DNA of 33,377 nucleotides from Spirochaetes bacterium GWB1_27_13. GTDB lineage: Bacteria > Spirochaetota > GWE2-31-10 > MWDO01. Made by a program: the position numbers and the translations under genes. Shown piece after piece: positions 5,159-18,737 of the stretch. The notes under the pieces are model-generated. The model was not told the origin of the DNA. It did no database searches and saw only the letters and a program-made list of their open reading frames with translations. Within the stretch, counting starts at the first letter, position 1; each line of letters opens with the position of its first letter. Where the stretch lies: the NCBI GenBank assembly GCA_001829125.1, contig MIAN01000190.1, positions 1 through 33,377 of the forward strand, read 5' to 3'.

Positions 5159-5686
5159 TTACGCAGAAATTAATTCTTTGTTTTCCGCAAAAATTTTTTT
5201 TAATTCTTCAACTGAAGTAACAATTGATATTACATTGTCTTTGCTATCAAATAAAACTACTGTTGGTGTAGAAAGAATATTGTATTTTCTTGCAGAATTT
5301 AATCCTAAATCACTGCTAACATCAACTTCTTCACCAGGTACAGGTAATTTCTTTAAAAATTCTTTTACAGGAGGGCAATTTCTACAAAATTCTGTGTAGA
5401 ATAATTTATAGAATGCTACATTACCAACAACTATATTTTCTTCTTTTACGGACTCTTCTTTATGTCCTTTAATAAAACCGTCAAAAGATTTTCCTTCTAT
5501 TTCTTTTTCAAAGTAACTAAATGTTAATCTATCTCTATATTCTTCTTTTTTCCCTTTATTCCAATTTGTTACTGCTCTGTGGTAGCCAACTATTCTTGTA
5601 TAAACCTCAGTTTCTGTACCAACAACATTTTTTAATTTTTCTTCAAGAGTAGATAACTCTTTTTCGATTTCTAAAATTGTTTTCAT
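5159..5686 (-). CDS. Stand-alone NrdD glycyl-radical-loop segment fused to a CxxC thioredoxin/glutaredoxin-like domain
   Basis: Residues ~21-56 (VVGTETEVYTRIVGYHRAVTNWNKGKKEEYRDRLTF) match the C-terminal glycyl-radical region of class III RNR. Residues ~90-165 (VAFYKLFYTEFCRNCPPVKEFLKKLPVPGEEVDVSSDLGLNSARKYNILSTPTVVLFD) are redoxin-like. Own AGGAGG RBS 5 nt before ATG. Confidence 0.85.
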   Translation of the reverse strand: MKTILEIEKELSTLEEKLKNVVGTETEVYTRIVGYHRAVTNWNKGKKEEYRDRLTFSYFEKEIEGKSFDGFIKGHKEESVKEENIVVGNVAFYKLFYTEFCRNCPPVKEFLKKLPVPGEEVDVSSDLGLNSARKYNILSTPTVVLFDSKDNVISIVTSVEELKKIFAENKELISA

Positions 5687-5704
5687 AACATCCTCCTGTT
5701 TTAA

Positions 5705-7822
5705 TTAACTTTTAGTTACTAAAAGTTCTTTTTCTCTTTGTAATTCAGTTATTTTATTTTGGATTTCTTTTTTTTCATTTTCTGCACATAATTCACAATG
5801 AAAATGTTCTCCAAGCAAATAACCGTGTACTGGACAAATTGAAAAAGTCGGTGAAATTGTAAAATAAGGTAATCTATAATTAGTTGCTATTGTTTTAACA
5901 AGTTTCAAACACGATTTCCAGTCTTGAATAGCCTCGCCAAGATACACATGAAAAACTGTTCCTCCAGTATATCTTTTTTGTAACTCGTCTTGCATATCCA
6001 AAGCTTCAAAAATATCATCAGTGTAATGAACAGGAAGCTGGGTAGAATTTGTGTAATAAGGCTCATCTGTTCCACTTGTAATAATATCTGGGTATTTTTG
6101 TTTGTCGTGTTTTGCAAGTCTGTAACTTGTACTTTCTGCTGGTGTTGCTTCAAGATTATACAAATCGCCAGTCTCTTCTTGAAAATCAGCAAGTCTTTTT
6201 CTCATAAAATCAAGTACTTCAATAGCAAAATCTTTACCTTCTTTTGTTGTAATATCTTTTTTTATAAAATTAAGTAAACACTCATTCATACCATTAATTC
6301 CGATAGTAGAAAAATGGTTATTAAAATGCTTCAAATATCTTTTTGTATAAGGAAAAAGTCCATTTTCCATGAGTCTATTTATAACTTTTCGTTTAATATC
6401 AAGCGATTCCTTTGCTGTTCTCATTAAATAATCGAGTCTTGTAAAAAATTCTTCTTTTGTTTTAGAAAGATAGCCAATTCGAGGAAGATTAATAGTAATA
6501 ACTCCAATAGAGCCAGTAAATTCATCTGCACCAAAGAGTCCTCCACCTTTTTTTCGTAATTCTCTTTTGTCAAGTTGAAGTCTACAACACATAGAACGAA
6601 CATCACCTGGATTTAAATCGCTATTTATAAAATTTTGAAAATAAGGCGTTCCATATTTTGCTGTCATTTCAAAAAGAAGTTTTACATTCTCAGAAGTCCA
6701 GTCAAAATCTTTTGTTATATTATAAGTTGGAATAGGATATTGGAAACCTCTGCCATTAGCATCACCTTCAAGCATTACTTCGATAAATGCTTTGTTTATC
6801 ATGTCCATCTCTTTCTGAAAGTCACCATAAGTCAATTCACCATAAGGCTTACCACCAACAATCGCAGGTTTATCTTTTAAGTCTTCAGGAACTACCCAGT
6901 CAAGAGTAATATTTGTGAAAGGTGCTTGACTTCCCCATCTTGAAGGAGTATTAACACCAAAAATAAAACTTTGTATTGCCTGTTTTACCTCTGGATATGT
7001 TAATTCGTCAACTCTAACAAAAGGAGCTAAATAAGTGTCAAAACTCGAAAATGCTTGAGCTCCAGCCCATTCGTTTTGCATTATACCCAAAAAATTTACT
7101 ACTTGAAAAACTAATGTATAAAGATGTCTTGCTGGTTTTGAACTAATTTTACCGTGAACTCCGCCAAGTCCTTCTTCAATCAATTGTCTTAACGACCAAC
7201 CCGCACAATACCCAGAAAACATACTCAAGTCATGGATATGAAAATCTGCATTTCTATGAGCATTTGCAACTTCTTCTGGATAGATATTTTTTAACCAGTA
7301 ATTTGCTGTAATCGTGCCAGAATTATGAAGAATAAGACCGCCAAGTGAGAAATTAACATTAGAGTTTTCATTAACTCTCCAATCAGATTGGCTTAAATAA
7401 CCTTCCATAGTAGCATCAATATCAAGCATTAATTTTTTAGAATCTCTTATTACTTGATGTCTTGCACGATAAATAATGTAAGCCTTTGCAATTTGAACCT
7501 GTTTTTCTTCAATTAAAACGGTTTCTACAAGGTCTTGAATTTCTTCTACCGCAGGAGCAGAATTTTTATGACGTGTTGCCATAAACTCTTCAATTTTCTT
7601 TTCTACCAAAGTAGTTAATTTATCAACTAAGTTAGAGTCAAATTTTTTTACTTCTTCAGCTGCCTTTTTTATAGCATCGTAAATTTTGTCTTTGTCATAT
7701 ATTTCAAGTTGTCCATCTCTTTTGATAACATGCTTTATTATATCACTGCTTGTACTTACTATTTTCTTTGAACTATCAAGCCCTAAAAAATTTTTTCGCC
7801 ATTGAGAATTTTTGTCGCCCAT
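5705..7822 (-). CDS. nrdD: Anaerobic (class III) ribonucleoside-triphosphate reductase large chain, lacking the C-terminal glycyl-radical loop
   Basis: ATP-cone (KHVIKRDGQLEIYDKDKIYDAIKKAAEEV), HIHDLSMFSGYCAGWSL, RSMCCRLQLDKREL finger loop, C-terminal Zn motif SICPVHGYLLGEHFHCELC, then a helical tail and stop. Confidence 0.92.
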   Translation of the reverse strand: MGDKNSQWRKNFLGLDSSKKIVSTSSDIIKHVIKRDGQLEIYDKDKIYDAIKKAAEEVKKFDSNLVDKLTTLVEKKIEEFMATRHKNSAPAVEEIQDLVETVLIEEKQVQIAKAYIIYRARHQVIRDSKKLMLDIDATMEGYLSQSDWRVNENSNVNFSLGGLILHNSGTITANYWLKNIYPEEVANAHRNADFHIHDLSMFSGYCAGWSLRQLIEEGLGGVHGKISSKPARHLYTLVFQVVNFLGIMQNEWAGAQAFSSFDTYLAPFVRVDELTYPEVKQAIQSFIFGVNTPSRWGSQAPFTNITLDWVVPEDLKDKPAIVGGKPYGELTYGDFQKEMDMINKAFIEVMLEGDANGRGFQYPIPTYNITKDFDWTSENVKLLFEMTAKYGTPYFQNFINSDLNPGDVRSMCCRLQLDKRELRKKGGGLFGADEFTGSIGVITINLPRIGYLSKTKEEFFTRLDYLMRTAKESLDIKRKVINRLMENGLFPYTKRYLKHFNNHFSTIGINGMNECLLNFIKKDITTKEGKDFAIEVLDFMRKRLADFQEETGDLYNLEATPAESTSYRLAKHDKQKYPDIITSGTDEPYYTNSTQLPVHYTDDIFEALDMQDELQKRYTGGTVFHVYLGEAIQDWKSCLKLVKTIATNYRLPYFTISPTFSICPVHGYLLGEHFHCELCAENEKKEIQNKITELQREKELLVTKS

Positions 7823-7840: not shown

Positions 7841-8299
7841 TTAATTATTTTTGATGTTCTCGATTTCTCTGATGAATTCGCTAACATCTTCAAATTTTCT
7901 ATAAACAGAAGCAAATCTTATGTATGCAATAGGATCAATCTTACTTATTTTTTTTATTGCCATCTCTCCTATTTGATAGGAAGATATTTCGTGAGAATCT
8001 CCTGCTTCCAATATTGCTTCTTCTTGGATAGAATTTATTAAATCTTCTATAACACTTTGTGGAATAGGTCTTTTTTCAAAAGCCTTTTGGATACCAGTAG
8101 ATAATTTTTCTATATTAAAAAGTTCTCTTCTTTTATCCCTTTTACTAACCATTAATTTTTTTTCTTCAATATGCTCGTAAGAAGTAAACCTATAACCACA
8201 TGATAAACATTCTCTCCTTCTTCTAAGACTTATCCCACCTGCTATGGAACGGGATTCTAAAACTTTATCTTCTACACAACTACAATTAGGACATTTCAT
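7841..8299 (-). CDS. nrdR: Transcriptional repressor NrdR
   Basis: MKCPNCSCVEDKVLESRSIAGGISLRRRRECLSCGYRFTSYEHIE zinc ribbon followed by ATP-cone; adjacent to nrdD. Confidence 0.95.
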   Translation of the reverse strand: MKCPNCSCVEDKVLESRSIAGGISLRRRRECLSCGYRFTSYEHIEEKKLMVSKRDKRRELFNIEKLSTGIQKAFEKRPIPQSVIEDLINSIQEEAILEAGDSHEISSYQIGEMAIKKISKIDPIAYIRFASVYRKFEDVSEFIREIENIKNN

Positions 8300-16648: not shown

Positions 16649-17029
16649 TTATAAAGTTTTAATATAGTCTTCGTAATCTTTTTCAGATAATAAATCGTTT
16701 AGTTCTTTTTCATCAGAAATTTTAAGTTTAAAAATCCAACCTTTTCCATAAGGGTCTTCATTTACAGCACCAGATTGTGATTCATCTTCAAAGATTGAAT
16801 TAAATTCGGCAACTTCACCTGCAACAGGAGCATAAATTTGACTTACACTTTTTACTGATTCTATTTCAGCAACATCATCGCCTTTGTTTACTTTATCTCC
16901 AATATCTTTTGTTAATGAAACATAAACAACGTCACCAAGTTCTTTTTGTGCGTAATTACTTATTCCTACGGTGCAAACACCTTTTTCACAAGAAATCCAT
17001 TCATGTTCTTTTGTAAATTTTCTTTCCAT
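16649..17029 (-). CDS. gcvH: Glycine cleavage system H protein (lipoyl carrier)
   Basis: ISNYAQKELGDVVYVSL, lipoyl-lysine motif ESVKSVSQIYAPVAGEV, NEDPYGKGWIFKLKI. Confidence 0.93.
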   Translation of the reverse strand: MERKFTKEHEWISCEKGVCTVGISNYAQKELGDVVYVSLTKDIGDKVNKGDDVAEIESVKSVSQIYAPVAGEVAEFNSIFEDESQSGAVNEDPYGKGWIFKLKISDEKELNDLLSEKDYEDYIKTL

Positions 17030-17081: not shown

Positions 17082-18737
17082 TTATTTCATATTTTCTGAT
17101 ATTTTGATTGAGGTTATTCCACCATTTATATTATAAACTTTTTGAAAGCCAGCACCTTTTAAAATTCGTTCTGCAACATAACCTCTAAGACCAACATGTC
17201 CATAAATATAAATAATTTTTTCTTTTGGTATCTCTCCGATTCTTTTTCTAATTTCATCAAGAGGAATCCATAAACTATTTAATAAATGTTCTTTTTGATA
17301 CTCAATTTTTGTCCTAATATCAAGAATCAATAAATCCTCGTCAAAATTTATTTCACTTAAAGTTACAGAATTTGATATGCCATCGAGTTTATTAGCAGCA
17401 ACCATTCCAATAACATTTATAGGGTCTTTATAAGTACTAATATCTGGAGTATAACAAAGATTAAGGTTTACCAAATCATCTACCGTAAGACTTGAATAAA
17501 TTGCTGTTGCAAAAACATCGAGTCTTTTATCTACGCCTTCACCTTTTCCGCAAATCTCTGCTCCTAATATTTTACGAGTCTTATTATCAATTATAACTTT
17601 TATATGAATTTTGGCTGAGCCAGAAATAAATCTTTCATAATTTCCATTAAAAATTGTCAAACTTGATATATCAAAGCCTTTTTCTTTTGCTGTATTCTCT
17701 GATAATCCAGTAATACCAATAGAAAGTTTGTTAAATTTTAAAAATTTTGTGCCTATTATTCCTTTAAACTCAAGAGGTACACCACCAGCAACAGAGCCAG
17801 CTACACGACCTTGAAATTGTGCATTACCTAAAAAGTAAGAAATTTCGTTTTCTTTAGTTATCAAATTAAAAGATTCTGCTACACTTCCTACTGCAAAAAT
17901 ATCTTGTTTTTTTGTCTCCATATTTTCATTCACCAATATTCCACCATTATCACCAACAGGAATATCGATTTGATATGCAAGATGCGTATTTGGTTTCAAA
18001 TCTTTGCAATATATAACAACTTGAGTATCAATAGAATAATTACTTAATTCTAATTTATAGATTACAGAATTTTCATTTTTTATATATCTATCTATTGTTG
18101 TATTTAGAAAAACTCTGGTACCTGAGCGAGAAAATTCTTCTTTTAAAAGAAAACTAAACTCATCATCAAGTTCTTTAAATAATTTATTTTCTTCAGAAAT
18201 GATATTTACAATAAACCCAGAATTAACAAAGGCATTAGCAAGTATTAAAGCAAAATAATTTTCGCCAATGATTGTAATATTTCTTGCCGAGGTTTTGTCT
18301 ATATAATTCCTAATAGCAATAGCATCGTCAAGATTTGTTATTTTAAAGAAATTTGGGCAATTGTTTTTGTAAGAAACTCCAAATTTGCTTCCATTTGCCA
18401 AAATTAATTTATCATAACTTTTTTCTGACGTTGTGTTAGTTTTTAGATTTTTTATTACGACTTTTTTCTCATTGTCGTCGATTTTCGTCACTTCAGAATT
18501 TTTTATTACATTGATTTTGTAGATATTGGCAAGTTTTTCTTCATAATCAGATATAATACCATTCTTATCTTTAATTTTTCCACATATAAACGCTGGTAAT
18601 GCAGATATTGGGTATGCTACATAATTCGACATCTCAATTATTGTTATTTCTGCATCCTCATTGATTCTTCTTGCTCTTGTCGCAGCTGAAACTCCAGCAG
18701 TTCCACCGCCAACGATTACTATTTTAACATTATTCAT
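17082..18737 (-). CDS. CoA-disulfide reductase-like FAD/NAD(P) oxidoreductase fused to C-terminal rhodanese domain; expected active-site cysteines absent
   Basis: IVGGGTAGVSAATRARR, GVDKRLDVFATAIYSSLTVDDLVNLNLCYTPDISTYKDPINVIGMVAAN typical of CoADR/Npsr; C-terminal LDIRTKIEYQKEHLLNSLWIPLDEIRKRI...HVGLRGYVAERIL rhodanese-like. Confidence 0.85.
   Translation of the reverse strand: MNNVKIVIVGGGTAGVSAATRARRINEDAEITIIEMSNYVAYPISALPAFICGKIKDKNGIISDYEEKLANIYKINVIKNSEVTKIDDNEKKVVIKNLKTNTTSEKSYDKLILANGSKFGVSYKNNCPNFFKITNLDDAIAIRNYIDKTSARNITIIGENYFALILANAFVNSGFIVNIISEENKLFKELDDEFSFLLKEEFSRSGTRVFLNTTIDRYIKNENSVIYKLELSNYSIDTQVVIYCKDLKPNTHLAYQIDIPVGDNGGILVNENMETKKQDIFAVGSVAESFNLITKENEISYFLGNAQFQGRVAGSVAGGVPLEFKGIIGTKFLKFNKLSIGITGLSENTAKEKGFDISSLTIFNGNYERFISGSAKIHIKVIIDNKTRKILGAEICGKGEGVDKRLDVFATAIYSSLTVDDLVNLNLCYTPDISTYKDPINVIGMVAANKLDGISNSVTLSEINFDEDLLILDIRTKIEYQKEHLLNSLWIPLDEIRKRIGEIPKEKIIYIYGHVGLRGYVAERILKGAGFQKVYNINGGITSIKISENMK

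Follow-up and report, generated by a model that had tools for sequence, protein, structure and literature searches.

The window, the whole 33,377-nucleotide stretch that was analysed, carries on its minus strand an apparent operon in which the RNR repressor gene nrdR is followed by nrdD, encoding the large subunit of a class III ribonucleotide reductase (RNR; protein P0002), and by a short reading frame for a small subunit (P0001) that joins a glycyl-radical domain (GRD) to a thioredoxin-fold domain. The features, all on the minus strand, are as follows.

5159..5686: small subunit P0001, 175 aa, glycyl-radical domain, linker and thioredoxin-fold domain (ORF, Pfam, homologues, AlphaFold2).
5192..5413: thioredoxin-fold domain, residues 92-165 (AlphaFold2, pLDDT 96-97; Foldseek against the PDB).
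5264..5266: P141, candidate cis-Pro, invariant in 90/90 homologues.
5375..5386: redox motif C101-R-N-C104, its CxxC present in 90/90 homologues plus 33/34 further ones.
5414..5515: linker, about residues 58-91, variable and of low confidence (pLDDT 48-69 by block; alignment gaps).
5573..5611: glycyl-radical loop TEVYTRIVGYHRA, residues 26-38, core invariant in 90/90 homologues (Pfam NRDD tail).
5585-5587: predicted radical Gly34 of the small subunit.
5692..5697: AGGAGG, Shine-Dalgarno-like sequence ahead of the small-subunit ORF, in the 18-nt gap after the nrdD stop codon.
5705..7822: nrdD, large subunit P0002, 705 aa, with ATP cone, barrel and Zn-site motif and without a glycyl-radical loop (Pfam, NF006126).
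5711..5794: helix predicted at the C-terminus of the large subunit, a candidate docking partner for helix 4-19 of the small subunit (AlphaFold2).
5786..5836: metal-site motif C663xxH...C676xxC679; C663, H666, C676 and C679 are invariant.
6149..6151: Glu558 (NLEATPAE), placed by alignment, invariant in NrdD alignment A3.
6581..6592: finger-loop motif M411-C412-C413-R414, invariant in alignment A3 (PMC9669993).
7205..7207: Cys206 of strand betaA, candidate half of the substrate-reducing pair, invariant in alignment A3 and aligned with the Thermotoga maritima active-site Cys.
7841..8299: nrdR, RNR repressor, upstream of nrdD in the same apparent operon (Pfam).

The two proteins divide a single family between them. 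NCBIfam NF006126 (684 positions) is covered at positions 2-663 by the large subunit and at 647-682 by the small one. The large subunit scores 1118 bits against this family, as expected of a class III RNR barrel, and matches Pfam NRDD over positions 1-535 of 562 (610 bits) in addition to an ATP-cone, ending past the metal-site motif. The last 31 positions of NRDD correspond to residues 25-56 of the small subunit (E 1.3e-7, above the cut-off), where the loop reads TRIVGY and so has the RVxGY pattern of class III RNRs, on a separate subunit. No second NRDD protein was found in the genome to which the window belongs, which is 87% complete. Judged by its sequences, the window system is a two-protein class III (anaerobic) RNR in which the radical domain is split off, a redoxin is fused to it, and both active sites are invariant.

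The small-subunit ORF begins 18 nt from the nrdD stop, and in the window the two share a frame, separated by one TAA. Over a larger set of loci the small gene lies in a random frame relative to nrdD (32/85 in frame), nrdD ends in differing stop codons and a Shine-Dalgarno-like site precedes the small gene in 79/85; therefore two proteins are made. How they might associate is indicated by a comparison of split and single-chain enzymes. In single-chain enzymes the GRD begins a few residues past the metal-site Cys, whereas split systems have an extra stretch at both the C-terminus of NrdD and the N-terminus of the small subunit, both absent from single-chain forms. In an AlphaFold2 pseudo-chain of 887 aa, in which the stop was read as Gln as a modelling device, helices 677-704 and 716-731 are predicted within these extra stretches and the GRD is better ordered (blocks of 66-93, against about 50-67 for the small subunit by itself), while the counterpart of the linker partly falls below a pLDDT of 50. 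The models suggest a helical docking element between the large and small subunits.

Splits of another sort occur elsewhere in the phylum. Separate glycyl-radical subunits of about 50-65 aa adjoin nrdD in other spirochaetes (L050:5030-5224, L051:5978-6139, L047:2413-2586, L052:5548-5724), and these short proteins have neither the helical extension nor a redoxin; they are probably independent events and a different kind of split. At two further loci (L043:6234-6518, L044:5731-6024) a split glycyl-radical subunit without a redoxin ends in a short Cys-rich C-terminal tail (CDCPP or CNCDCPP) reminiscent of the Cys shuttle at the C-terminus of class I/II RNRs; an nrdG-type gene follows directly and nrdD is not adjacent.

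The sequence-only reading had placed a redoxin with a CxxC motif and a cis-Pro, fused to the glycyl-radical segment, at 5159-5440. These positions do encode, on the minus strand, residues 83-175 of the 175-aa ORF, and the fusion is borne out by Pfam, AlphaFold2 and conservation in 90/90 homologues. The Pfam Glutaredoxin and Thioredoxin matches of residues 95-165 are sub-threshold in the window protein itself (E ~0.002), and Pfam Glutaredoxin is matched by 59 of the 79 members of alignment A2 at E<=0.01. AlphaFold2, given the 79-sequence alignment, predicts a confident beta-alpha-beta-alpha-beta-beta-alpha fold for residues 92-167 (pLDDT 96-97). The Foldseek check that had been proposed for this domain gave 171 PDB matches at E<=0.001, and among the 50 of these that were listed nearly all are thioredoxins, with a few DsbD-gamma or other thioredoxin-like domains; the second-ranked match is a chain of the Bacillus subtilis ribonucleotide reductase complex. 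With a thioredoxin fold, a CxxC and, by sequence, a candidate cis-Pro, the domain belongs to the thioredoxin superfamily. In the 90 aligned homologues, whose identity to the window protein goes down to ~30%, the invariant positions are the radical-loop residues together with C101, C104, G128 and P141. Because these homologues had been chosen by similarity, a further 34 fused proteins from the phylum scan were read, weakest matches included, and 33 keep the CxxC; the exception, L204, appears frameshifted, since its redoxin match falls in another frame. The redoxin dithiol is, in the sequences aligned, essentially invariant across distant relatives.

A profile search of genome contigs kept 80 named loci, which belong to Spirochaetota, including Treponema socranskii, T. 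lecithinolyticum and Candidatus Marispirochaeta, and, outside that phylum, to five Margulisbacteria-group records (one of them Candidatus Termititenax) and one Candidatus Caenarcanum. The same type of small protein is encoded in complete chromosomes and named public genomes. Among 393 spirochaete genomes sampled, 225 match the query profile and ~129 have fused systems, ~103 of them split and 26 single-chain; these two counts were made by match span, and most of the single-chain and weakest cases were also read. Operons of the order nrdR-nrdD-small subunit-nrdG were found, and an nrdG-type gene lies close downstream in 62 of the 113 loci with enough sequence. The domain order is the same in the split system and in single-chain NrdD-GRD-Trx proteins, which make up about a fifth of the fused spirochaete systems and are also encoded on IMG/VR viral contigs (L231-L249), where the CxxC is present in all with a readable fused ORF. 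Some of the viral genes have very short linkers (e.g. L242, L248). The existence of single-chain forms, spirochaetal and viral, leaves the earlier idea of a swappable subunit no more than a possibility; the redoxin therefore belongs to the RNR and not to a detachable subunit as such. In an unverified phage record, MT835493.1 (L230:2036-5356), a single-chain NrdD-GRD-thioredoxin gene is followed directly by a thioredoxin reductase gene.

The active site of the large subunit has two features of the NrdD2 type, a third active-site Cys in a double-Cys finger loop and, by alignment, an active-site Glu. The position of Glu558 is Glu in T. maritima, Tyr in T4 and S. thermophilus and Leu in P. copri. 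All NrdDs of fused systems that were read have MCCR, and almost all have the Glu. The double Cys and the Glu without the Met are associated with thioredoxin-only class III enzymes, while Met-containing ones may use formate or thioredoxin (PMC9669993). Met411 opens the finger-loop motif here, and the window's NrdD is by its residues of the Met-containing type, for which formate or thioredoxin is possible. Unfused spirochaete NrdDs also carry MCCR and the Glu, and the combination therefore permits, and does not demand, thioredoxin use; as specific proof of such use it is ruled out. Of the earlier proposal that the redoxin serves as a thioredoxin-type reductant instead of formate, the first part fits the third Cys and the Glu; the second is not established, since the finger-loop Met is retained, and it gains nothing from the phylum-wide distribution of PFL-type enzymes described below.

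Elsewhere in the same 87% complete genome, another contig encodes an NrdG2 (TIGR02495, 186.9 bits), identifying a radical-SAM activase of the NrdG kind, and two thioredoxin reductases score above the cut-off, one of them fused to thioredoxin; this fusion protein has 423 aa (contig C133, L142:2634-3905). Neither a class I/II RNR nor a PFL-type glycyl radical enzyme was detected in this incomplete genome, and the latter result fits a replacement of formate. Phylum-wide, fusion shows no association with absence of PFL-type enzymes (72/129 vs 47/96 spirochaete genomes, p=0.35), and the notion that the fusion replaces a lost PFL/formate supply is unsupported at that scale. Class I/II RNRs were not found in 62/129 fused genomes vs 15/96 (p=2.6e-7, relatedness uncorrected). 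The genomes are not phylogenetically independent, and absence of a glycyl radical enzyme or RNR partly reflects incomplete genomes. In the window itself, a gene at 17082-18737 on the minus strand looks by eye as if it encodes a flavoprotein resembling NAD(P)H/CoA-disulfide reductases, with a rhodanese-like stretch at its C-terminus; it lies upstream of a gcvH-like gene (16649-17029).

The reading that we favour, at a probability of about 0.7, is that the tethered redoxin reduces the NrdD disulfide in cis and is recharged by thioredoxin reductase. NrdG2, encoded elsewhere in the genome, would form the radical on Gly34 of the small subunit, whose loop would dock in the NrdD barrel with the aid of pairing between the C-terminal helix of NrdD and the N-terminal helix of the small subunit, and the radical would move on to a finger-loop Cys (412 or 413). 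Once the nucleotide is reduced, Cys206 and one Cys of the finger loop would be joined in a disulfide, along the lines proposed for Neisseria bacilliformis, whose enzyme uses thioredoxin. C101/C104, held at high local concentration by the flexible linker, would then reduce this disulfide, with NADPH-thioredoxin reductase recharging them; formate may remain a second possible reductant. The enzyme thus conceived probably brings its own electron supply, with free formate or free thioredoxin not its sole source. For reduction in cis count the conserved CxxC and cis-Pro, the confident thioredoxin fold, the MCCR and Glu of the partner NrdD, the domain order shared with single-chain forms, the operons with nrdG, the two thioredoxin reductases of the genome and the fused genomes in which no class I/II RNR was found. 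There is also a class I precedent, in which the redoxin joined to the radical-bearing subunit serves as reductant of the enzyme (PMC6187632), and the adjacent thioredoxin reductase gene, seen once, points the same way. Against it count, as far as the sequences go, the retained, formate-compatible finger-loop Met (PMC9669993), the presence of MCCR and Glu in unfused NrdDs and the lack of association between fusion and PFL absence. The active-site pocket of RNR is described as unable to accommodate a thioredoxin (PMC4390871), and reduction in cis would therefore need a conformational step.

It is possible, and is put forward tentatively, that the class III RNRs of spirochaetes, Margulisbacteria and some viral contigs carry their reductant in cis, and that the split form places radical and electrons on one mobile subunit that alternates between a radical-in state, with the GRD docked, and a redoxin-in state, for disulfide reduction. 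If true, alternating states would explain how thioredoxin gains access to the buried class III site with no need of the shuttle Cys residues that classes I and II have at the C-terminus; in class III RNRs no such external shuttle has been demonstrated (PMC4390871). With a covalent and strictly conserved redoxin, access of a protein reductant to this buried site becomes testable in a defined system, and a natural class III RNR with its glycyl radical on a separate polypeptide would offer a carrier open to mutation, exchange or labelling while the catalytic subunit is left as it is.

The main rival to reduction in cis, which we consider rather unlikely, gives the redoxin a role in activation or repair: it would keep NrdD cysteines, at the metal site or in the finger-loop pair, reduced for NrdG, and formate would be the substrate reductant. 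Thioredoxin activates the E. coli class III RNR according to Padovani 2001, as cited in PMC4390871, and the redoxin sits on the very segment on which NrdG must act; the kept finger-loop Met and the PFL-type enzymes in many fused genomes are also in keeping with such a role. The third Cys and the Glu of NrdD, however, favour a disulfide mechanism, no PFL-type enzyme was detected in the 87% complete genome of the window, and covalent attachment so widespread would seem needless for an activation helper. Less probable still is a redox switch or protective domain, one that senses, for example, disulfide stress or oxygen and governs how the radical subunit docks. A split, mobile radical subunit on a linker predicted by AlphaFold2 to be flexible would suit it, and spare glycyl-radical subunits such as YfiD/GrcA for PFL are generally known; what is conserved, however, is a full thioredoxin catalytic set (CxxC and cis-Pro) and not one sensing Cys, and the single-chain versions are unable to swap a radical subunit. 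That the redoxin serves structure or docking alone, its CxxC being vestigial, is very improbable: the small subunit bearing it must indeed be held to NrdD, but CxxC and cis-Pro are invariant in a domain that otherwise mostly varies, and a separate helical docking element is predicted. An artefact, suggested by the shared frame and single TAA of the window ORFs, is already refuted by the comparative sequence data, with read-through ruled out by the random frame, varied stops and ribosome-binding sites, pseudogene or assembly error by recurrence of the protein in many genomes, complete chromosomes and named public ones among them, and with purifying selection also standing against it.

Several known systems share parts of this arrangement. 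The class III RNR of Methanosarcina barkeri, which has an NrdD3 finger loop, is served by NrdH and ferredoxin-disulfide reductase; there too the redoxin partner is dedicated to the class III RNR, separate in that system and fused here. YfiD/GrcA likewise presents a glycyl-radical domain as a separate small protein, but it repairs damaged PFL, is not a normal radical carrier and has no redoxin. NrdD2 is reportedly, after Wei et al., the thioredoxin-dependent class III RNR. The NrdD2-type enzymes of N. bacilliformis and T. maritima have the double-Cys finger loop, active-site Glu and NrdG activation seen here; they differ in that one NrdD chain holds its own GRD, whereas the radical domain is here on a separate subunit, in using a separate thioredoxin or an unidentified protein as reductant, and in reading SCCR vs MCCR here (PMC4493059, PMC9669993). 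The split class II RNR NrdJa/NrdJb of Pseudomonas aeruginosa also consists of two chains, cut near the C-terminal redox/metal domains (PMC9669993), but has a B12 radical, no glycyl radical and no thioredoxin domain. The Grx-ATPcone-NrdB of Facklamia ignava and the Grx-NrdB of Francisella carry, as here, a redoxin covalently on the radical-bearing subunit, and the fused glutaredoxin of F. ignava is the shown reductant of its RNR (PMC6187632); unlike the window system, they are class I enzymes with a metal-based radical and the glutaredoxin at the N-terminus of NrdB. Within class III, grx::nrdD of Lachnospiraceae bacterium TWA4 likewise joins a redoxin to the RNR gene; it is a single listed, uncharacterised case, compared here by its listing (PMC6187632). 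Redoxin-RNR fusions are already known, mainly in class I; no description of a split glycyl-radical subunit carrying a redoxin was found in the open literature searched, subscription papers (e.g. Wei et al. 2014) aside, and a subunit that unites the split-off radical with a redoxin appears to be new.
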